A DNA stretch of 41,543 nucleotides from a virus. Of the stretch, positions 1 to 41,543 are shown piece by piece (the first letter of the stretch is position 1; the number at the start of each line of letters is the position of its first letter). The DNA lies in the IMG/VR virus record IMGVR_UViG_3300045741_000032, positions 1 to 41,543 of that record; one strand, given 5' to 3'. The notes below the pieces were generated by a model. It made no database searches. It worked only from the letters and a program-made list of their open reading frames with translations, and was not told the origin of the DNA. The translations under genes were made by a program, and so were the position numbers.

Positions 1-127
1 GTATTCTCCATATCCCAAGCGGTTCAGGACGCACCTAGCCTTAGCCAGGTGCCTTAACGATTACATCCCAGTGCGGACGAGGATCGACCCGCCAGCCGTT
101 CGTGGGGAGGGCGCTAGCTTCGCCACC
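1..127. repeat. Terminal direct repeat, left copy (contig circularity)
   Basis: Bases 1-127 are identical to bases 41417-41543. The length of exactly 127 matches the largest k-mer used by common metagenome assemblers. The simplest reading is therefore an assembly overlap of a circular or circularly permuted molecule, not a biological terminal repeat. Headful-packaging P22-like phages normally give circular maps, which fits. Confidence 0.93.
31..52. promoter_or_regulatory. Hairpin just upstream of the leftward gene's ribosome binding site
   Basis: GCACCT (31-36) pairs with AGGTGC (47-52) around a 10-base loop that itself contains AGCC-TT-AGCC. In the leftward transcript it ends about 20 bases before the GGAG of the gene starting at 41415. 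It could influence that gene's translation, or act as an antisense target. There is no U-run after it, so it is not an intrinsic terminator. It is duplicated at 41447-41468 by the contig overlap. Confidence 0.4.
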
Positions 128-225
128 CTCTTGCGCGGTATCGCACCCACTGATGCCACAGTTCCGCTTCTCACGGGTGCCGCTGTCGTCTTGCATTTAC
201 CCAGCATCCCGCCAGTCCCGGAAAA

Positions 226-303
226 GCAAAAGCCCCTAAAGTCCAGTGCTCTCCGTGGCTGCAACACGGTGCCTTTCGGCCAGAGCACGGGCTTTAGGGG
301 CCT
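226..303 (-). ncRNA. Structured three-way-junction RNA, candidate C4/CI-type antisense immunity RNA
   Basis: Seen: a long outer helix pairs 232-241 with 292-301 (10 bp, perfect), continues 242-244 with 289-291 (one G-U pair), skips bulge A245, then pairs 246-252 with 282-288 (7 bp, perfect). Inside are two hairpins: 253-257 with 265-269 (CCGTG/CACGG, 7-base loop), and 271-273 with 278-280, whose loop reads GAAA on the minus strand, i.e. GCC-GAAA-GGC. On the minus strand the helix is followed by TTTTGCTTTT, so the 3' end may also work as a terminator or processing site. Known: phage P1 C4 and satellite P4 CI are RNAs of about 70-80 nt in the leader of the operon they control, and they act by antisense pairing. 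Inferred: this is a C4-like RNA. The assignment rests on architecture and position, not on a database match. A plain attenuator is the main alternative. Confidence 0.6.
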
Positions 304-317
304 GTGATCATTGTCAA

Positions 318-328
318 TGTTGCAGCCA
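318..328 (-). promoter_or_regulatory. 11-base antisense partner of the C4-like RNA apical loop
   Basis: TGTTGCAGCCA at 318-328 is the exact reverse complement of TGGCTGCAACA at 256-266, which forms the apical loop and half of the stem of one hairpin in the structured RNA. Both lie in the same predicted leftward transcript, so the 5' leader can pair with the loop and open the hairpin. In P4 the CI RNA pairs through one segment with complementary segments of the leader, and this arrangement is formally alike. I found no equally good second partner downstream. Confidence 0.55.
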
Positions 329-343
329 ATGACAGAAGTCATT
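328..343. promoter_or_regulatory. Inverted repeat over the -10/start of the leftward promoter (candidate operator)
   Basis: AATGAC-AGAA-GTCATT is a perfect 6-bp dyad at 328-343. It overlaps the proposed -10 (341-346) and transcription start (about 334), where a bound repressor would block the polymerase. The protein that would bind is unknown; the Cro-like protein and the winged-helix-like protein are candidates. Confidence 0.4.
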
Positions 344-368
344 CTACACGCTCACTTGGCGCTGTCAA
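341..368 (-). promoter_or_regulatory. Leftward sigma70-type promoter for the leader RNA and main leftward operon
   Basis: On the minus strand a perfect -35 TTGACA (363-368) is followed by a 16-base spacer and -10 TAGAAT (341-346, five of six consensus bases). Transcription would start near 334, about 30 bases before the structured RNA, and run through the circular junction into the replication, packaging, structural and lysis genes. The promoter lies partly within the last codons of the upstream gene (stop at 352-354). Confidence 0.6.
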
Positions 369-887: not shown

Positions 888-1143
888 CGAATCCGCTCCT
901 TTGCCAGAATGGGCCCTCGGTCTCACAGGCTTCGGCCAAACGGATCAGAACCGCCGCCAAGTCAAGGGCTTCGGCATAGACCGCGCCTAGTTTGTTCGAT
1001 CGGACCGCTTCGATCAGCTCGTGCCACTCCTCAAGCGCTACGCCCATAGATTCGTGCGTGCTGGTGGGTGGGCCGTACTTGGCTTTGGCGGCTAGGATTC
1101 GCTGATGTAGCGCGCCCTCTGTGTCAAAGTGGTTTGTCAGCAT
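877..1143 (-). CDS. MazG-like all-alpha NTP pyrophosphohydrolase-type protein (putative)
   Basis: 88 aa from ATG 1143, with GAGGAGGGG just upstream; the ATG overlaps the end of the preceding gene. Residues of about 37-75 give a helix with EEWHELIEA, then an EALDLAAVLIRLAE helix. That spacing of paired acids, ExxxE in one helix and ExxD in the next, is the metal-binding pattern of MazG/dUTPase-like all-alpha pyrophosphatases. Such enzymes hydrolyse NTPs to NMPs. In phages they can shape nucleotide pools or alarmone levels. The family assignment rests on this motif alone, so it is moderate. Confidence 0.55.
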   Translation of the reverse strand: MLTNHFDTEGALHQRILAAKAKYGPPTSTHESMGVALEEWHELIEAVRSNKLGAVYAEALDLAAVLIRLAEACETEGPFWQRSGFDAA

Positions 1144-2375
1144 GTCCCCTCCTCTACCTCTTCGCTGAAAATGCCCCACGCCTTACGCCTGCGCTTCATT
1201 AGGGCTTCGTACTTTGCATAGGCCGCCGTCTTCGTGGGGCTAAACCCAATGTACTTGCACCAATAATCATTCTTCAAAAGAGTCTTGCAAACACGACGCC
1301 AGCTAGGAACCTTGCCTGCATTTTCCAATTTGATCGGTACTTCATCGCCGTCAGGAAGACCGTCGGGGTAGCCTCTGCTTTTGTACCATTGAATGTAATA
1401 GGCGATTTTGTGCTTGTAGTGTTCGCGTGTCTTTGGCGGGGTGCTGTCAAGAATCGATAACGCAAACGACTTCCAAGTATGGCCTGGTGGCAACTGGATT
1501 GTGTGATTGCCCATCATCGACCCGCGCGTGTTGGCGTACAGTTTTCCGGTGTTAGCGCCATTCGCTCGAAGGACCAGTTTCGCCCATACGGCGGGCTCGA
1601 TCACTTGGTAAAGCCACATCCCTTTGCGTGACTCCTCGCCAAATGGCTCGCATATCCGCATCTGATGAAGCGTCATCCCGGCTTGATGCATGAAGTCATA
1701 GAGTTTGTTGTATGGCTTCTCCGTCTTGCCGTGATAGGTCCAAATGTCCTCGGTCACCCAGTCATAGATCGGATATATGTTCCATAGGTCATCGACGACA
1801 TTCGTTGTGAACATGCGACCTTCAAACGTCGGCTTGTCTCTTGCCAATGTGCGAAAACGATTCAGGCTTTCTTGAGCGCGAATGCCGACGAAACATGCCG
1901 TTCGCTCGCCGTTCGCAAACCACTTCCCAAATGCCGGGACGAACTCCTCGAACATGATGCCGTCATACCAGAACGGGAAACGCGATCCATCCGTGATGCT
2001 CAATGGATCAGGATCGCGCACCCACAGATTGCGCTTCTTGGCATCCCACGACTGCCATTCCGGCTCGTGAGCAGAACAGGCATTCCATGTCTTGATAGGA
2101 ACAGCGCACCAGTAAGGCTCAATGCAGTCAGCATAGTCTGTGAACACTTGCCGAGCAAAGTTGATGGTATGCGTGAATTGAGCCTCCCAATCAAGAAAGA
2201 ATAGCCCGACTTTCCGGCCACGCCTGCGCGCCTCAGACAACACCAAGTGAGCCATAACGCCGGAGTCTTTGCCGGCGCTGAAACTGCAATAGATTCGCGG
2301 GAAGTTGTCAAACGTCCATTCAATACGCTCCTGCGCCGCCGTCAATACATCGATGCCGAGCGACCATTTAGGCAT
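1137..2375 (-). CDS. PP-loop ATPase / PAPS reductase-like protein, IbrA-like (DUF3440 type)
   Basis: 412 aa from ATG 2375, with GGGAG eight bases upstream; a longer frame exists, but this start has the ribosome site and the usual short overlap with the gene before. Residues 31-38 (SFSAGKDS) are the PP-loop of adenine-nucleotide alpha hydrolases, the fold of PAPS reductase, DndC and tRNA thiolation enzymes. The long C-terminal part is rich in W, Y and K, as in the IbrA/DUF3440 group. Known: ibrA and ibrB are adjacent in E. coli and prophages, and a ParB/Srx-fold protein commonly accompanies this ATPase; the biochemical role is unsettled. Here the ParB-like partner is two genes upstream, with one unknown gene between. 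No Fe-S Cys cluster stands out. Confidence 0.85.
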   Translation of the reverse strand: MPKWSLGIDVLTAAQERIEWTFDNFPRIYCSFSAGKDSGVMAHLVLSEARRRGRKVGLFFLDWEAQFTHTINFARQVFTDYADCIEPYWCAVPIKTWNACSAHEPEWQSWDAKKRNLWVRDPDPLSITDGSRFPFWYDGIMFEEFVPAFGKWFANGERTACFVGIRAQESLNRFRTLARDKPTFEGRMFTTNVVDDLWNIYPIYDWVTEDIWTYHGKTEKPYNKLYDFMHQAGMTLHQMRICEPFGEESRKGMWLYQVIEPAVWAKLVLRANGANTGKLYANTRGSMMGNHTIQLPPGHTWKSFALSILDSTPPKTREHYKHKIAYYIQWYKSRGYPDGLPDGDEVPIKLENAGKVPSWRRVCKTLLKNDYWCKYIGFSPTKTAAYAKYEALMKRRRKAWGIFSEEVEEGTC

Positions 2376-2748
2376 AGGTGCGCTCCCAATATTCGATTGC
2401 CAAGCGCGCTTGTTCGTTCGCCGCATCTTGCTGGGTCTGCGTCAGATGACCCCATGCCTCGCGCACGATATCTTCTGGACATTGAATAGCCATCGCTACG
2501 GCGGCGTGACCTATCCAGGGCTTACGGTTCGTTTCCATCTTGGTCAAGTGATGCTCACATGAATACTTCCATGCGTCTGCCACCTTGAACATCCAGCTTC
2601 CATAGAGCATGTGATCGCCCGTAAATGCGATTGCTCTTTGCAGCCAATCGCTTTTGTCTTTCACATTGCCCCACATGTTGAAGTTAACTTCTTCCCACTT
2701 CCAAAATGGGTGATGGAGCTCGAAAAGATCACTCGTCGTCAGCAACAT
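2368..2748 (-). CDS. Unknown protein between the IbrB-like and IbrA-like genes
   Basis: 126 aa from ATG 2748, with GGAAGG five bases upstream; a TTG at 2769 is possible but less likely. The protein is Trp-rich and helical in appearance, with WLQRAIAF, MFKVADAWKYSCEHHLT and a C-terminal helix ending ARLAIEYWERTYA. I do not recognise a catalytic motif. It overlaps the end of the ParB-like gene by about 20 bases and the start of the PP-loop gene by 8, so the three are made from one transcript by coupled translation. It is a candidate third subunit or substrate-recognition partner of that pair. Confidence 0.8.
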   Translation of the reverse strand: MLLTTSDLFELHHPFWKWEEVNFNMWGNVKDKSDWLQRAIAFTGDHMLYGSWMFKVADAWKYSCEHHLTKMETNRKPWIGHAAVAMAIQCPEDIVREAWGHLTQTQQDAANEQARLAIEYWERTYA

Positions 2749-3448
2749 TGACGCCTTCCACTTCTTCAAACGAGGTTGCTTGCCATGCTTCCGAGAAAGA
2801 TCGGTCCGCGAAAAGTCCAGCTAGGCCAGTGACCTGTGTCAGCCGCAGAACCTCGTCGGCGTCCATCCCTAGTTCCGTAGCGATCTTGGCGTCGGACCAA
2901 AATCGCCGCTTCAACTCGACAACAATGTCGGCCATCGATGAGACTTTGTGCTCACCCCGGGCGCGGTTATGGCGGATCGTCGCAGCCATGCGGTCTGACT
3001 TGTCGCGCCTGTCGGCGTTGATGTTCACCACGGGCAGATAGCCGTGAATACGCTCACGCACGTCCGTACATTCCTTGCCTACGCGATGCCTGTGGAAGCC
3101 GTCAATCACTTCATTGATCTCCGCGCCGCTGTCCCTCATGGCGACAATGGGCTGCGTGTACCCATCGGCTTCAATCGATAGGCGCAATAACTCCATCTCT
3201 GGAGGAGCTACGCTATTCGGGTTGTAGTCGTTAGCATAGACACTTGTGTTCGGCACCCAGCGGACGAAGTCCACAGGCTCTCGCCTGAATGGGCTTACCT
3301 CGTGCAACATGGCGCGAATCGCATTCAATGCCTCGACTCGCTCTTCTAGCGGGACAACTGCCAACCCTGCAATGATCGGCGCTACGTCGCGGACGATATC
3401 TTCGGCGCGCACCACTTCAAAAAGATTAAGCGTCATTTCCTGAACCAT
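2729..3448 (-). CDS. ParB/Srx-fold nuclease-like protein, IbrB-like
   Basis: 239 aa. Residues of about 74-105 match the ParB N-terminal strand-helix block (DYNPN...PEMELLRLSI...TQPIV). Residues 112-124 carry the nucleotide-binding loop NEVIDGFHRHRVG, equivalent to the GxHR motif of ParB/sulfiredoxin. Residues of about 166-210 form a helical HTH-like region. It is a phage or mobile-element ParB-like protein of the IbrB kind, probably not a partition protein, since no ParA or parS-like repeats are visible. It overlaps the Cro-like gene by 16 bases. Partnered with a PP-loop ATPase, it may act in nucleotide or DNA modification; this is inference from gene pairing. Confidence 0.85.
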   Translation of the reverse strand: MVQEMTLNLFEVVRAEDIVRDVAPIIAGLAVVPLEERVEALNAIRAMLHEVSPFRREPVDFVRWVPNTSVYANDYNPNSVAPPEMELLRLSIEADGYTQPIVAMRDSGAEINEVIDGFHRHRVGKECTDVRERIHGYLPVVNINADRRDKSDRMAATIRHNRARGEHKVSSMADIVVELKRRFWSDAKIATELGMDADEVLRLTQVTGLAGLFADRSFSEAWQATSFEEVEGVNVADDE

Positions 3449-3588
3449 CTCGGCTTGATCTCCCGTAGCCTATAGACCTGTAGGCGCGGCATCTGTCGCC
3501 ACTTGCTCACGGCCTGCCTAGATATACCCAAGAGCCGGGCCAACGCGCTAATGCTGCCTGCTCGGGCGACTGCTTCTTGCTTGTCCAT
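3433..3588 (-). CDS. Cro-like helix-turn-helix regulator
   Basis: 51 aa from ATG 3588. Residues of about 14-30 (SALARLLGISRQAVSKW) are a clear HTH, and overall length and arrangement match small Cro repressors of lambdoid phages. An in-frame GTG at 3618 has no ribosome site. The ATG lies 7 bases after a good -10 box, so a leaderless mRNA is likely. It faces the rightward promoter at 3644-3672, the usual position for Cro. No CI partner gene is present, so it probably represses early transcription on its own and may autoregulate through the dyad at 3610-3619. Confidence 0.85.
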   Translation of the reverse strand: MDKQEAVARAGSISALARLLGISRQAVSKWRQMPRLQVYRLREIKPRWFRK

Positions 3589-3594
3589 ATTGGC

Positions 3595-3623
3595 ATGATA
3601 GGGCAGGATCGTGAACACGTCAA
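3595..3623 (-). promoter_or_regulatory. Leftward promoter giving a leaderless cro mRNA
   Basis: On the minus strand, TTGACG (3618-3623) is followed by a 17-base spacer and TATCAT (3595-3600). The A of ATG 3588 is the seventh base after the -10, where transcription normally starts, so the mRNA would begin at the start codon. No Shine-Dalgarno is seen before 3588, which agrees. An alternative start slightly upstream is TTGTCA (3645-3650), 17 bases, TATGTT (3622-3627). Confidence 0.55.
3610..3619. promoter_or_regulatory. Dyad CGTG-AA-CACG between -35 and -10 of the cro promoter
   Basis: A perfect short palindrome (half-sites CGTG/CACG, 2-base centre) occupies the spacer of the leftward promoter, 25 bases from the rightward -35. 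It is a plausible operator for the Cro-like protein. I found no second clear copy in the divergent region, so the call is tentative. Confidence 0.35.
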
Positions 3624-20790: not shown

Positions 20791-21353
20791 TTTCTAGCCG
20801 TCAGCGTCACGATCAGGTCTCTCCAAGCGTTCGTGTAATGGTTCATCCCGAACTGCTTGTACTCCCCGTTCCGCATTTCCAGTGCCTGATCCCAGGAACC
20901 GGCAATTACGTGGTCGAAGTGGCAGGTATAAGGAGCATGTGGAGCGTTGGCAGCACGCCAGTCCTTGTGCAGATATAACGGATACCACTGGCTCATGGGA
21001 GGCCATTGATGGGTTGGATCTCCGTAGGCGCATGAGTGGCTCCAGTTCGGGGTGACGATCATCGCGGTCGCGCCATTCTTCATCACCCTCCACAACTCGT
21101 TGAAGAACGCGATCCGCTCCGAGCCTGTCAGGTGTTCCACAAAGTGACTGGATCGCACCTCGTCCACTGAGTCATCCGCGTAGGGGATGCCTTGTCGGAC
21201 GTCATGGACATGCTTCTGACCGAAGTCGATGGCGTCGATACCAATCCATCCCTCGGGGGTCGTTTTGCCGCACCCTATGTCGAGACGGACAACCTCGGGG
21301 ACCACCTCCCCTTGGGGCGCTTCTACTTTGCGGAGGATCGAGCCTTTAGCCAT
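20787..21353 (-). CDS. SAM-dependent methyltransferase (class I, type-11-like)
   Basis: 188 aa. Residues of about 22-32 (VRLDIGCGKTT) form motif I. IGIDAIDF follows at the strand-2 acid; ADDSVDEVRSSHFVEHL is the usual motif around the end of strand 4, then a WRVMKNGATAMIVTPN strand. These identify a small class I methyltransferase, probably acting on a sugar or small molecule, though a protein target is possible. It directly follows a glycosyltransferase-like gene inside the tail module, suggesting joint modification of a glycan on the cell surface or on virion fibres. Confidence 0.82.
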   Translation of the reverse strand: MAKGSILRKVEAPQGEVVPEVVRLDIGCGKTTPEGWIGIDAIDFGQKHVHDVRQGIPYADDSVDEVRSSHFVEHLTGSERIAFFNELWRVMKNGATAMIVTPNWSHSCAYGDPTHQWPPMSQWYPLYLHKDWRAANAPHAPYTCHFDHVIAGSWDQALEMRNGEYKQFGMNHYTNAWRDLIVTLTARK

Positions 21354-21356
21354 GTT

Positions 21357-22082
21357 TCACCACGTCATGTCCGGTTGTCCAAACTTACCCTCCAGGTCGT
21401 AATGTCCGACCATAACGGAGCAGTCCACGGCACATCGGTAGCCGTGCTTACGAGCATCGGACCAGAAGTAGAGGTCTTGTGTAGAAACCCCGTTTTCGGT
21501 CTGTGTCTTGAACCAAGGCTTTCTGAGATCAGGGTCGCGGAACATATCGAGCCTCCAGAGGTTGAACCCCATCCCTGTGCCACAGCACTCAACCAGTTCA
21601 CCGGGAATGGGAGGTTGTGGTCTGAAGTTGGTTGTTGCGTCTCGTGGATCGCCCCAAATCTGAGCGTGTCCACCCTCACCCTTGAGCCAGTAAAGGCCGC
21701 CGATGCAGTCATACTCGGGATGGTTCTCCATTCTTTCCAATAACTTGACAAGGCCGTCGGGTGGAACGATATTGTCATGCTCGATGGTCAGGATGTATTT
21801 GAACTTCGACAGATCCGGGTGTGCAAGGATGTTTTCGATGGCCGTTGAGTATGCCTCTCCGACCTCCATCCCGACACAGAACATCCTGTAAAGCTGGTTG
21901 TTCGGAGGTGCGTATAGGTTCATCCAACTGGCGACAGCCTTGGTTGGTACAGACCCAGCTGCTGGGATCAGCACGATGGTATCGAGCTTCTTCCACGCCG
22001 CCGTCTTCTTGACGCGACTGATCGACGCTTCCAAGTCAGCGTTGTGCTTCCCGAAGTCGGGAGCGACGATTTGAGGCTTCAT
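21357..22082 (-). CDS. Glycosyltransferase-like protein (GT-A fold)
   Basis: 241 aa from ATG 22082, ATGA-coupled to the gene before; longer frames upstream run inside that gene. After a helical N-terminus, TIVLIPAAGSVPTKAVASW opens a Rossmann-like domain. YILTIEHDNIVPPDGLVKLLERM contains EHDN at the place of the metal-binding DXD motif. IGGLYWLKGEG and VECCGTGMGFNLWRLDMF resemble acceptor-side motifs of family 2-like enzymes. Acceptor unknown. Confidence 0.72.
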   Translation of the reverse strand: MKPQIVAPDFGKHNADLEASISRVKKTAAWKKLDTIVLIPAAGSVPTKAVASWMNLYAPPNNQLYRMFCVGMEVGEAYSTAIENILAHPDLSKFKYILTIEHDNIVPPDGLVKLLERMENHPEYDCIGGLYWLKGEGGHAQIWGDPRDATTNFRPQPPIPGELVECCGTGMGFNLWRLDMFRDPDLRKPWFKTQTENGVSTQDLYFWSDARKHGYRCAVDCSVMVGHYDLEGKFGQPDMTW

Positions 22083-35902: not shown

Positions 35903-38049
35903 ATGGCTCTCTCGGTGGTTTCTTCGCTGGCCTGGTCGGCGTTTTCAGCATCAATCTTCGCTAGGGCTAGTGCAAAGGCGCCCTTGATCTGCTCGATCAG
36001 GATCGCGTTGCGGTTCTTCATGCCCTGCACTTCCTTGTCGGTCTGGGTCTTGAGCACCGTGTCATGCGCCGTGGTGTGAGTCTTCAGCTCGGCATCACGT
36101 AGCTCGGTCTCGGCCCGGCGCTCCACATCGTGAGCGCGGACAGTAACGTCCATCAACTTGCGCTTGGTCTCTCCCTCTTGTCTCAATTGCTCCACGTCCT
36201 GACGGCTCTTGATGAGCATTCCAGCCTGCTGTAGCTGCTGCTGTAGTTGCTGGATTTGCCCAGCTTGGGCCTTGAGTTTCATCTGAATCTCAGGAGGAAT
36301 CTCGGCGGCGTCCATGTCTATCTGGGCCAGCGGGTTAGCTGCTGCGAGTCTGTCCGCGATCACATCCGCACCCGGGAAGTCCATGTTGCGGAACACCAAG
36401 TCCCCCGCGACTTTCATCAGCTCCTCGTTCTTGCCCAAGAGCGGGAGCATCGCAGTCACGGCTTCTTGCCGTTTGGTGGAGTAACCCGGACCTGTATCCA
36501 TGACCACGGCATATTCGCCTACGGTCACGTCGTTGATGACTTCTTCGATAGGTCCCGGCGTATTTTGACCTGGGGAGGGGTTCTGTTGGTTAATCGCCAG
36601 AACCTTGGCTGAACCGTCGTCACCCAGTATGCGAACAATACGTCCTGGCTCATTGTAGTAATGCGGGATAAGATCTAGAAGGACCCGTCCCACTTGCGCC
36701 ATCGACCTGGTGAGATTGTCGTAGTAGTTGAAGGTAGAGTTATTGGATTGCTGCCGCTCGGCGTTGAGCGCCTTACCGCTTTGATTACCTCCGATCCTAA
36801 CTGCTGGATCAACAATTCCAAGGACGGCGGATAGGTCTTCGCCGATGGTTTGCGCAGCGACCATGACCCCAGACGGCGGTGGTTCAGGTTGCAACCTCTG
36901 AGGAGGCGTCGGTACAGGCTGTCCATCGCTGTCAGTCTGCTTGTAGCGGAGATACGGGAACGCCGAGATGTTTGCATTGGCCCATTCCTTTTCGTGTCCT
37001 TCATCTTGACCCTCGGCCATCACCCATTTGGCCTTGGGCGCCAGGGCGACGGATTCGGTCATCGCGGTACGCCAGAAGTTGTACATTCGGGCCGGGTCGC
37101 GGGCGTTTCTGACCAGCCCCGATCTGTGTCTCTTGCCGTCCACGAAGATGGTCTTACCGTAGACCGGGATGATGGGCAGATACTTCCCGGGCAGGATCTT
37201 GTGCTCGAGGATCTCCAGCGCAGTAAGTTTCCACCAGTGCAGCTCTTTCTGCATCGAGGTGCGCTTACCAACAACCACTAGCCCGGGCGGGATGGTTTCA
37301 CCTTCGTAGGCAGTCGTCCCGTCCGACAACTGGAGCAGGGTCCGCTTCTTCCGCTCTATCCGGTAATACTCCGCGATCCTGATCTCTTCCTTGTTCAGCC
37401 ACGTCCTGTAGGAGTCGCCGGTCCCGTGCTGGTTGAAGTTTGCCCCCGTGTCCGCTCCTGGGTACATTCTCTTGAATGCGTGCTTGCTCATCATGTCCGT
37501 GATGAGGCACTCCTCGGCGTCGCTTCCGTCCGGCCATTGGCTGTTCGGGTCCAGATACACCGAAAACGGATTCTCGATAGGGCATAGGTACAGGTCCTGC
37601 TCGAAGCTGTCATCCCGGCAATAGTCCGCCAAGACTCTGATATAGCCCTCGCCACACGTCGCTGCTAGGCCGAATGCCGTGTCATAGGCCAGATCACCGC
37701 CGCCCCGGTTGTTCTCGATGTGGCGGATCAAGCCTTGGATGACGTCCGCGACCTTCTTGGTCGTCCCCGCCCCGACAGGATCGACCTTGATGCGGGGTCT
37801 TTGTTGTCTCTGCTCGTTCTCGACGCTGGTGATGTAGGCGTCGGTCTTGTTGATCGTGAGACAAGGACGCTGCTCCAGTTTGCGGCTATTCTGGACCTCG
37901 GCGGGCCATTGTTGTCCGTTCCTGAAGCGAATGTCTTCCAATGCTTCACGACGGTTATCGCTGCTGGCTTCTTCGCACAGACGCAGAAACTGCACCGCGC
38001 GGTCGATGACCCCTCGGCCTTCAGTGACCAATTCTTCTAGGACATCCAT
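35899..38049 (-). CDS. Portal protein, P22-like
   Basis: 716 aa. FRNGQQWP...RPCLTINKTDAYITSVENEQRQQRPRIKV (about 43-85) is the family opening. Downstream, LVVVGKRTSMQKELHWWKLT and NVAL/PKAKWVMAEGQ-like segments follow the P22_portal pattern. The C-terminal 130 residues are Gln-rich and coiled coil (QIQQLQQQLQQAG), the barrel region. Forms the dodecameric packaging ring. Overlaps TerL by 13 bases and couples to the scaffold by ATGA. Confidence 0.9.
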   Translation of the reverse strand: MDVLEELVTEGRGVIDRAVQFLRLCEEASSDNRREALEDIRFRNGQQWPAEVQNSRKLEQRPCLTINKTDAYITSVENEQRQQRPRIKVDPVGAGTTKKVADVIQGLIRHIENNRGGGDLAYDTAFGLAATCGEGYIRVLADYCRDDSFEQDLYLCPIENPFSVYLDPNSQWPDGSDAEECLITDMMSKHAFKRMYPGADTGANFNQHGTGDSYRTWLNKEEIRIAEYYRIERKKRTLLQLSDGTTAYEGETIPPGLVVVGKRTSMQKELHWWKLTALEILEHKILPGKYLPIIPVYGKTIFVDGKRHRSGLVRNARDPARMYNFWRTAMTESVALAPKAKWVMAEGQDEGHEKEWANANISAFPYLRYKQTDSDGQPVPTPPQRLQPEPPPSGVMVAAQTIGEDLSAVLGIVDPAVRIGGNQSGKALNAERQQSNNSTFNYYDNLTRSMAQVGRVLLDLIPHYYNEPGRIVRILGDDGSAKVLAINQQNPSPGQNTPGPIEEVINDVTVGEYAVVMDTGPGYSTKRQEAVTAMLPLLGKNEELMKVAGDLVFRNMDFPGADVIADRLAAANPLAQIDMDAAEIPPEIQMKLKAQAGQIQQLQQQLQQAGMLIKSRQDVEQLRQEGETKRKLMDVTVRAHDVERRAETELRDAELKTHTTAHDTVLKTQTDKEVQGMKNRNAILIEQIKGAFALALAKIDAENADQASEETTERAI

Positions 38050-39377
38050 GCTGCGGCGCTCGCCAGCCTCTCAATAGGTTGGGGCTTGGTCTGTTTTCTC
38101 GGGTTGACCATGCCGGGGAACAATTCGGTTAACCCCCAGATGAGCGCATCGGCTCGGTTAGGGCTTCCATGCCCGGTATAGCCTAGCGTGCTGAACCCGG
38201 CCAGTTCATCTTCAAGCTCGCGGAAGTAGCCTACGTGCCTGATCTTGCCCTGCTCGTATAAGGACGAGAATGGCTCGGCCCTCACGACTTTCCCTCGGGA
38301 CGCTGTAACTGCCTTGAACGGAGTCCTTTGCCGGGCTGCCTGGATGACCGTCTGGACCATCGCTCCGCCGAAGTTGGTTTCAGCCACGATAACATCTGCT
38401 CGGTGTCGGTCAAACGCGGTGGTGGCGATATTGCCCCAGGTGTTGGGACCTGCTTTGACGGTGCAGTCCTCGAGGACGTAGCAGTTGCCGTCTGTGCCAA
38501 GTCCGACGACCAGGATGCCAATTGCGTCATTGTCCACGTTATCGGTGTCACCGGACCCGCTAGGATCGACGGCCACCACGATGCGCTGCCATTCGGGTAG
38601 ATCACCGTCCAAGTGCCTCCAGCGTTCGATGTGCTCCTCGGGGAATAGAGCGTTCGGGGTTGCGTCTGCGAACTCACCACGCAGGAACCGCTTCTGAAGC
38701 CTGGCTGACAAGCCCTTCAGGGTCTGGTCGATGTAGTCCGCCGGCAGGTTGTCCAGATTATCCGTGGGGTTCATCTGCATGGCCTTGTAGCGACCATTAG
38801 CAGGCAAGGGCAGGTTCGTCTCTGGGTCTACGCCCTGGATGAAAAGCCTGTACGTCCAATGGGCTTTACTGGGTGGGTTGCAGTCGTAGTACATCTTCCG
38901 GGCCAGCTGCTTGGGTTCCCTATCCTCGATCTGGGTCTGCGCCACCTGAGCTAGGCGGGTCACCACCAGCCCCACGCTCGGCCAAGGGATCTGAGAGCAT
39001 TCGTTCAAGAAGATCGTGGCGAATTCCAGGCCGAGGATCTTCTCCGTGCGCTCTTTGTCGTCTAATCCACCAAGCCAGATTTCCGATCCATTCTCTAGGC
39101 GGAAGTACCCAGGTCGCTCCTGCCACCTGGTCTCGATCTGGGGATAGCACAGTCTCAGCACCTTGGGCATGGTGTCCAGCGCCACGGACTGGACGACCGC
39201 GTTGTATCGAAACCGCAGGATGGCGTGTCTTGACCCCGGGGCCTTGATCGCTCTGGCCAAGATGGCCCGGCATAGCAGGAAGGTTTTCCCGGATCTGCTC
39301 CCGCCAAAGAGCATGATGTTCTCGGCCTGACTGCCAAGCAGGCGTTGTGCTTCTTCCTGCTTGGCGGTGAACTTCAC
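38037..39377 (-). CDS. terL: Terminase large subunit
   Basis: 446 aa from GTG 39377 (GTGA overlap with TerS). Walker A GGSRSGKT at 25-32, Walker B TIFLNE at 121-126, and coupling motif in YYDCNPP at about 163-169. The C-terminal RNase-H-fold nuclease begins with VAVDPSGSGD (268-277), with later acids in VDNDAIGI and DVIVAETNFGG. Both the ATPase motor and the headful nuclease appear intact. Confidence 0.95.
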   Translation of the reverse strand: MKFTAKQEEAQRLLGSQAENIMLFGGSRSGKTFLLCRAILARAIKAPGSRHAILRFRYNAVVQSVALDTMPKVLRLCYPQIETRWQERPGYFRLENGSEIWLGGLDDKERTEKILGLEFATIFLNECSQIPWPSVGLVVTRLAQVAQTQIEDREPKQLARKMYYDCNPPSKAHWTYRLFIQGVDPETNLPLPANGRYKAMQMNPTDNLDNLPADYIDQTLKGLSARLQKRFLRGEFADATPNALFPEEHIERWRHLDGDLPEWQRIVVAVDPSGSGDTDNVDNDAIGILVVGLGTDGNCYVLEDCTVKAGPNTWGNIATTAFDRHRADVIVAETNFGGAMVQTVIQAARQRTPFKAVTASRGKVVRAEPFSSLYEQGKIRHVGYFRELEDELAGFSTLGYTGHGSPNRADALIWGLTELFPGMVNPRKQTKPQPIERLASAAAWMS

Positions 39378-40693: not shown

Positions 40694-40923
40694 TTTTGCG
40701 GTAAATGACGCGCCCAATATACAGGGCAATCTTCGCCATCACTTCCCTTCATGTAAGAACGCGGCGGAGGCCAACTCCAGGAATAGTTATTTGTCATGCA
40801 ACTAGGAATCAATGGACGATCTGGATTCGGAGCATGGCAAGGATGAATTGAGTCCTTTCTCACCGTATGTCTACCAAGGCTATCAGGCGGGACTCCATAC
40901 CATTTGCATGTCTTGCAAGTCAT
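40690..40923 (-). CDS. Small Cys-rich, Trp-rich protein
   Basis: 77 aa, ATGA-coupled to the DnaT-like gene. It begins MTCKTCKWY, with Cys also at about 29, 42 and 66, enough for one zinc site. A Trp/Pro stretch (YSWSWPPPRSY) precedes GEDCPVYW. Such CxxCxWY proteins are common in phages and of unknown function. Confidence 0.68.
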   Translation of the reverse strand: MTCKTCKWYGVPPDSLGRHTVRKDSIHPCHAPNPDRPLIPSCMTNNYSWSWPPPRSYMKGSDGEDCPVYWARHLPQK

Positions 40924-41249
40924 CGCCTCATCGCCTCTATGCTGGCACGTAACTGTGCCTGATATATCGCCTCGCGGTCCTGTTCCAGCTTCTCAGCCGG
41001 AGGAGGGATCTCCGCCCCATCCCATCGCTGCTGGTGCAGATATACCAAAGGGGCTGGGATGTATGCCCCGCCTTCTTTGAGCCAATCCGCCGTAGTTTTG
41101 AGCCAGCGGATATGAGCGAGGATAGTTTCGCTCTGCGATTCATGGTGCCGGGTTATCCACACTTTCAGGCATTGCGACTTGGCCCCTTTCCTGCTGTATC
41201 TCTCCGAATTCCTGGGCCATTCTCTCCAGAATAACTCGAATCCTTCCAT
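40920..41249 (-). CDS. DnaT/replication-initiator C-terminal-like domain protein
   Basis: 109 aa. ELFWREWPRN near the N-terminus, then VWITRH, LAHIRWLKTTADWLKEGGAYIPAPLVYLHQQRWDG (about 45-78), is the pattern of the C-terminal domain of phage replication proteins and of DnaT, which bind ssDNA and load the host helicase. The usual N-terminal HTH part of phage initiators is missing, so it may be an accessory helicase loader. It is the only replication-type protein in the window besides the SSB-like one. Confidence 0.75.
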   Translation of the reverse strand: MEGFELFWREWPRNSERYSRKGAKSQCLKVWITRHHESQSETILAHIRWLKTTADWLKEGGAYIPAPLVYLHQQRWDGAEIPPPAEKLEQDREAIYQAQLRASIEAMRR

Positions 41250-41250
41250 A

Positions 41251-41415
41251 TTAGCGCCCCAAAACCTGTATTAACAAATCCTTGAATTTGTCTCTTAGTT
41301 CTTCCTCGCGCCTTAATCTGTTTTCTCTTTCTTCCCTTAGATATTTGACTTGTTCTTCTAGCTGCTTCTTCTCCCCTAGCAGCTTGTCGTACTCTACTTT
41401 CCAGTCCTTTGCCAT
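41251..41415 (-). CDS. 54-aa coiled-coil protein, first gene after the leader RNA
   Basis: ATG 41415 has GGAGAATACG immediately upstream, a strong site. The protein begins MAKDWKVEYDKLLGEKKQLE and is almost entirely a charged heptad coiled coil ending LLIQVLGR. It opens the operon controlled by the promoter and C4-like RNA, across the circular junction. The base after its stop begins the next ATG region (TAATATG). Role unknown; it may partner the DnaT-like protein. Confidence 0.75.
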   Translation of the reverse strand: MAKDWKVEYDKLLGEKKQLEEQVKYLREERENRLRREEELRDKFKDLLIQVLGR

Positions 41416-41416
41416 C

Positions 41417-41543
41417 GTATTCTCCATATCCCAAGCGGTTCAGGACGCACCTAGCCTTAGCCAGGTGCCTTAACGATTACATCCCAGTGCGGACGAGGAT
41501 CGACCCGCCAGCCGTTCGTGGGGAGGGCGCTAGCTTCGCCACC
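41417..41543. repeat. Terminal direct repeat, right copy
   Basis: Identical to 1-127. When the contig is closed, the ribosome site of the gene starting at 41415 and the hairpin at 31-52 appear once, directly joined to the leader. Confidence 0.93.

Follow-up and report, generated by a model that had tools for sequence, protein, structure and literature searches.

A candidate self-recognising transcriptional attenuator with a hypervariable segment pair in the leader of a phage replication and late operon

Genome setting and elements of the leader

The window is the whole stretch of DNA analysed, 41,543 nucleotides of the virus record IMGVR_UViG_3300045741_000032. Bases 1–127 are repeated at 41417–41543, and because of this terminal 127-base repeat we take the phage genome to be circular, with a length of 41,416 bp. 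The leader at its left end therefore joins an operon at its right end, and the junction is spanned by the related contigs L044 and L057, with the same neighbours. A preliminary description of this DNA had placed an RNA switch in the leader of the replication-structural operon, and the gene matches agree with that location. Past the junction the operon consists of a 58-aa ORF followed by genes for a replication-initiation-like protein, an endonuclease, a GroES-like protein, the terminase and a P22-type coat protein; given the position of the terminase gene, it extends to packaging and structural genes. The genes referred to here are as follows.

41251–41427, minus strand: first ORF of the operon, 58 aa (ORF list)
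40920–41249, minus strand: replication-initiation-like protein, the next operon gene (PHROG 9474, E 3e-8)
38037–39377, minus strand: terminase large subunit (Pfam PF03237 and PF17289)
3433–3618, minus strand: small Cro-like HTH protein (PHROG 409, E 1e-10)

The 58-aa ORF separates the leader from the replication gene and lies within an insertion of ~168 bp that L044 and L057 lack (blastn gap, rotated positions 21249–21416). The Cro-like HTH protein is encoded at a divergent junction, and the phage may therefore own a second, protein-based control region. At 1137–3448 on the minus strand a PAPS-reductase-like protein stands beside a ParB-like protein, an arrangement that recalls the IbrA/IbrB pair. 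The phage had been described as lacking an integrase, and our search of the window agrees. Among 27 records, namely the window and 26 others with related elements (some of them fragments), one contains a tyrosine integrase and none has an HTH_3 repressor over the cut-off, in a search confined to these two families. The leader itself is composed of the following elements, given in the order of transcription.

341–368, minus strand: sigma70-type promoter, TTGACA-16-TAGAAT (11 of 12 consensus matches)
312–334, minus strand: leader hairpin with segment A in its 7-nt loop GCUGCAA (predicted folds)
318–328, minus strand: segment A, 5'-UGGCUGCAACA-3', candidate antiterminator strand and target site (11-nt perfect complement of B)
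230–303, minus strand: three-way-junction, terminator-like hairpin (predicted folds; outer-stem covariation in the 93-contig relatives described below)
256–266, minus strand: segment B, 5'-UGUUGCAGCCA-3', including the loop UUGCAGC of hairpin 2 (changes compensating A in L044 and L057)
222–231, minus strand: U tract, UUUUGCUUUU (sequence, immediately 3' of the stem)
87–211, minus strand: Betaproteobacteria-1 RNA, Rfam RF02932, in the part of the leader reached by read-through (74.6 bits in cmscan, against a gathering score of 49.4)
10–86, minus strand: conserved extension past the Rfam model, an AAGGC..GGCUAAGGCUAGG.. hairpin (predicted fold; similar motif after the Rfam segment in other loci)

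A near-consensus promoter upstream of the RNA was part of the preliminary description, and the site at 341–368 is the only sigma70-like site that a consensus scan found in positions 1–1000 (0.4 expected). Transcription is predicted to start at ~334 on the minus strand, and the identical promoter sequence precedes the element in L044 and L057. The same scan of 1–1000 gave no promoter on the plus strand. A plus-strand reading of the structure was rejected: it folds too, like any inverted repeat, but has neither promoter nor U run.

The three-way junction reported earlier stands, and its strand is now explicit, as the GNRA loop (GAAA), the promoter and the U tract all belong to the minus strand. 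The outer helix has the single bulge ascribed to it but comprises 21 pairs (12+2+7) plus one mismatch, not 20 pairs. Within it we recover both inner hairpins, the tetraloop hairpin GCC-GAAA-GGC and a second one, CCGUG-UUGCAGC-CACGG, which contains B. The minus strand from 345 to 226 folds with -52.4 kcal/mol (z = -4.5), and as good a fold was obtained in none of 200 shuffles. We regard it as practically certain that this is a real base-paired leader element. Because UUUUGCUUUU directly adjoins the stem, the hairpin looks like an intrinsic terminator, and U runs are present at the matching place in relatives. Its sequence points to such a terminator more than to a 77-nt RNA processed by RNase P; the terminated RNA is predicted to be ~110 nt long. 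The hairpin at 230–303 was absent from the list of a simple terminator scan, probably because the stem-loop pattern of that scan does not cover a three-way junction.

The attenuator of the window, like that of many relatives, is followed by the Betaproteobacteria-1 RNA, whose conservation extends ~80 nt past the Rfam model. It is nonetheless a separate RNA: it is found without the attenuator after primase-like genes, and the attenuator is also found without RF02932. In particular, in prophages and isolate genomes (L004, L005, L047, L165 and L166) it lies directly 3' of a toprim/primase-like gene. It scores over the cut-off in 5 of 399 Burkholderiales genomes, and inspection of the sequence upstream in those five revealed no attenuator. 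One guess is that it is a processive antitermination element. We found no description of it in the open-licence literature, and the arrangement reported here, if our reading is true, would be the first context for this orphan RNA. Some of the relatives have, in its place behind this attenuator, other conserved RNAs that look structured, of at least three kinds (one in L095, L072 and L143, one in L099 and L091, and one in L100, L133, L079 and L089), and these gave no Rfam matches beyond chance-level ones. In L044 an inverted repeat insertion of ~125 bp, which starts with GTGGAGTCGGTTTTGTGGTGGTG and ends with CACCACCACAAAGCCGATTCC, lies between the terminator and the Betaproteobacteria-1 RNA; it is missing from the window and from L057.

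Covariation of segments A and B among related phages

An 11-base segment of the leader had been described as the perfect reverse complement of part of the second hairpin, and this holds exactly, with 328–318 on the minus strand matching 266–256. When the leader was shuffled with its dinucleotides preserved, runs of at least 11 nt arose in 28 of 100,000 trials, and the complement is therefore beyond chance. In the window the cores of A and B are the two 7-nt hairpin loops, GCUGCAA and UUGCAGC, which are exact complements of each other. When the phage genome was examined for other targets, one further match of 9 nt to A was found (14522, minus strand), and B has no additional target of 9 nt or more.

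Relatives were obtained from viral contigs that contain a conserved word of the downstream RNA, by inspecting the sequence upstream of it. A common order of promoter, A, long hairpin with B, U run and Betaproteobacteria-1 RNA recurs across unrelated backbones (L044, L057, L006, L008, L041, L028, L019, L034, L023 and L040). The relatives show strong compensatory evolution in exactly the two segments that the preliminary description had named. The window, L044 and L057 have very few differences over ~115 nt, and those in A and B compensate exactly: the pairs are GGCUGC/GCAGCC in the window, GGGUGC/GCACCC in L044 and GCCUGC/GCAGGC in L057. The leader hairpin loops are correspondingly GGUGCAA in L044 and CCUGCAA in L057, and the B loops UUGCACC and UUGCAGG. 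The weakest case of the mixed set is L019, with 6 nt. Pattern searches from two of the backbones gave 16 contigs of the L006 type and 93 contigs of the L023/L034 type (hereafter the 93-contig type). The L006 type folds into one hairpin plus an unpaired B and, in a near-identical frame, carries three pairs: GUGAGAG/CUCUCAC, GUGGAAG/CUUCCAC and GUGACUGAUA/UAUCAGUCAC.

The 93-contig type contains 67 distinct A/B regions with ~50 A/B pairs. The longest complement of A with its own B has a mean length of 8.4 nt, compared to 4.4 nt with the B of other phages, and no value as high was seen in 10,000 permutations. In an alignment of 22 distinct members, four pairs of the A:B helix underwent double-sided changes, with up to four pair types each; AU, UA, GC and CG all occur at the variable core positions. 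Counted over the entire structure, double-changed cells number 66, compared to a shuffled mean of 20.7 (0 of 500 shuffles), a signal that is lost in control slides; such counts are inflated by relatedness, whereas exact compensation between near-identical elements is independent of kinship. Exceptions are L105, in which the pair is broken, and L143, in which it has one mismatch.

A second, weaker covarying complement is present in the 93-contig type (for example in L133, L145 and L120), between the start of the leader and the sequence after the terminator. The leader segments GTCGGAA, ACTGGAA and GTTGGAA occur with TTCCGAC, TTCCAGT and TTCCAAC, respectively. Across the type the effect is weak (mean 5.4 versus 5.1 nt, 1/5,000), and the segment is possibly P4 seqC-like or part of a closing helix.

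The covariation bears on a rival account, in which the hairpin is nothing but the intrinsic terminator of the minus-strand operon upstream, which ends at 352, and the complement in the leader arose by chance. The hairpin does lie 3' of the stop codon of the gene at 352–636 and would end upstream transcription. But a promoter stands between that gene and the hairpin, and the complement is beyond chance and kept through compensatory change. Covariation thus contradicts a chance complement, and we find this account hardly credible.

Predicted folding, specificity and mode of action

In the transcript, A emerges some 50–60 nt ahead of B. When transcripts were shortened to the point at which B has just been made, A:B was part of the best predicted structure in all nine elements tested, and at the same stage it was in the best fold of all 67 elements of the 93-contig type. 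A leader-swap control is not discriminating at this earliest stage, as 51 of the 67 swapped elements also have at least six leader-head pairs. With the full terminator present, A:B remained best in 25 of 67 native elements versus 1 of 67 leader-swapped ones, and the outer stem formed 13.5 pairs in native and 21.1 in swapped elements. Since A:B is best until the 3' arm appears, and given the 25 versus 1 of 67, A:B is predicted to compete with the terminator in the manner of an antiterminator; the folding model is nested and cannot score an A:B pseudoknot, and A:B may form together with the terminator. The alternative pairing, which had been thought to open the RNA, is supported by compensatory evolution but, from the predicted folds, is better read as an antiterminator. 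On the strength of these models we consider it probable that the element is a leader attenuator in which A:B acts as the antiterminator.

The segment pair is hypervariable within a fixed frame. One invariant pair of terminator arms is shared by 29 elements with 15 A/B types, as counted by the longest exact run and including one broken and one mismatched pair, and six of the types recur on more than one backbone. In a subset of 23 elements the 26-nt head varies at four positions only, and these are the B core. To judge from the sequences, this is the pattern expected from selection against cross-talk. With ~50 versions of both segments, related phages look as if a phage-specific RNA password gated gene expression. 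Phages of one sample did not differ in type more often than by chance (39 pairs, 2 alike, 1.1 expected), a comparison of low power.

Compensatory changes alone do not separate pairing in cis from pairing in trans. In a cis-only attenuator, A and B would pair within one molecule, as an antiterminator or as a fold-stabilising kissing contact, and a protein, the speed of the polymerase or the Betaproteobacteria-1 RNA would decide on read-through, with no RNA acting in trans. Intramolecular pairing fits every compensatory change equally well, A:B is the best nascent fold, and no lysogen is required, which suits phages lacking an integrase. However, one would not expect a purely internal helix to outpace its neighbours in diversifying unless cross-talk is selected against, and here 15 types occur on one terminator whose head varies at four core positions only. 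We regard cis-only control as a serious alternative, if an unlikely one. It is mainly because the pair is hypervariable in a fixed frame that we prefer trans action to a purely internal helix, and we lean towards self-recognition in trans, a mode of action that the preliminary description had already raised.

Taking both parts together, we slightly favour an attenuator in the leader of the main replication and late operon whose own terminated RNA acts in trans. RNA polymerase would start at ~334 and transcribe A, the 5' arm of the terminator, B within the terminator head, the 3' arm and the U tract. If A paired with B of its own transcript (11 bp), the terminator would be delayed or blocked, and transcription would read through into the Betaproteobacteria-1 RNA and the operon. 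If A were occupied, the terminator would form and the ~110-nt RNA would be released. This RNA would display A and B in loops, and its B could occupy A on new transcripts of the same pair. A terminated RNA from an earlier round would take A before B is made and would thus favour termination. As the terminated RNA accumulates, read-through would decrease, which would constitute autogenous control. In principle, an incoming phage of the same type could also be silenced, and the element may have an immunity-like role.

No cultured phage with the attenuator was found by blastn in the collection searched; Acidovorax phage AP1 was the only cultured phage to match, in the Betaproteobacteria-1 part only. 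The pattern of the 93-contig type was present in none of the 399 Burkholderiales genomes. Classical prophage immunity is doubtful, because an integrase is missing in 26 of 27 records and the 93-contig pattern in all 399 of these genomes. Tentatively, and with more doubt than confidence, we suggest a large natural family in which the terminated RNA of each phage recognises leaders of its own pairing type only. There would be dozens of RNA-coded compatibility groups, mostly in integrase-less phages, and a resident or first-infecting phage would shut the main operon of newcomers of the same type. If true, this raises the question of why integrase-less phages need a self-recognising RNA.

The genes behind the element vary. 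In the window it precedes a replication-to-structural operon and in L028 the gene for a major head protein; in L008 it heads an operon that reaches the terminase and portal genes, and in L143 and L133 methyltransferase genes. This variation weighs against replication control of the plasmid kind (ColE1, IncFII, pT181), in which the pair would set replicon copy number or incompatibility and the Betaproteobacteria-1 RNA would be part of a primer or origin. Plasmid antisense RNAs have kissing loops, which the complementary 7-nt loops of the window resemble. A replication-initiation-like gene lies downstream, and the Betaproteobacteria-1 RNA of prophages is often right behind a toprim/primase-like gene. 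But replication genes are not the common target, as the differing downstream genes of L028, L008, L143 and L133 demonstrate, and we consider replication control improbable.

Comparison with known antisense and attenuator systems

The preliminary description had likened the element to the C4 and CI antisense RNAs. Membership of the C4 family is not supported by the Rfam model: RF01695 was unmatched in positions 1–700 even at E up to 10. Nor did any other Rfam family match the hairpin at 230–303. A true member would be processed and act by antisense, blocking translation or causing Rho-dependent termination at outside sites. The element's two hairpins on a closing stem (in the window type), its complementary target upstream on the same strand and a specificity segment of ~4–10 nt are all as in C4 and CI. 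Yet the hairpin has its own U tract and itself looks like a terminator, there is a single A/B pair where C4 has a' and b', one of them over a ribosome-binding site, the only target identified lies in the leader of the element itself and is no ribosome-binding site, and there are many more specificity types. We do not file the element under C4, because the model has no match and a second target segment is absent, and we hold true membership to be very improbable. What it shares with C4 is specificity: in P1 and P7 C4 a loop of 7–11 nt confers specificity, and a difference of 4 nt abolishes P1-P7 cross-reaction (PMC5320573).

With P4 CI the likeness is one of topology. The CI RNA comes from the phage's own leader, on the same strand as its target, with seqA upstream in the same transcript, and the outcome is premature termination ahead of the replication genes (PMC4825925). 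In the element described here the target segment is likewise upstream on the same transcript and complementary to a segment of the RNA, a likeness of topology for which no relation by sequence or model was found. The differences are that the hairpin itself has the U tract of an intrinsic terminator and that the window type has no clear seqC.

The antisense RNA of pT181 is transcribed from the opposite strand, whereas the candidate antisense here is the same-strand terminated product, and the target is a phage operon rather than plasmid repC. In both, an intrinsic terminator and a competing antiterminator pairing (here predicted) lie in the leader; in pT181 they are switched by antisense binding (PMC3753616). 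IsrK of Gifsy-1 has been called structurally homologous to P4 seqA (PMC4825925). IsrK (RF01394) resembles the element in that transcription from a prophage promoter either terminates to give a short RNA or continues into an operon, but RF01394 was unmatched in the window and gave one sub-threshold match of 13 bits, in L099.

The element would thus work like P1 C4/P4 CI and pT181, and we assign it to neither. To our knowledge, which extends to the open-licence literature, no system has been described that combines, as this one would, a same-strand self-antisense, an intrinsic terminator and dozens of pairing types. A 2013 study remarked on how few natural transcriptional attenuators there were and considered its own engineered orthogonal set, 7 x 7 in size, to be the largest on record (PMC3753616). 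If our reading is true, the phages described here would possess a control device whose specificity code is readable, with a terminator frame that stays fixed plus a 4–10-nt pair in ~50 types, and would supply many more natural attenuator candidates than that engineered set.
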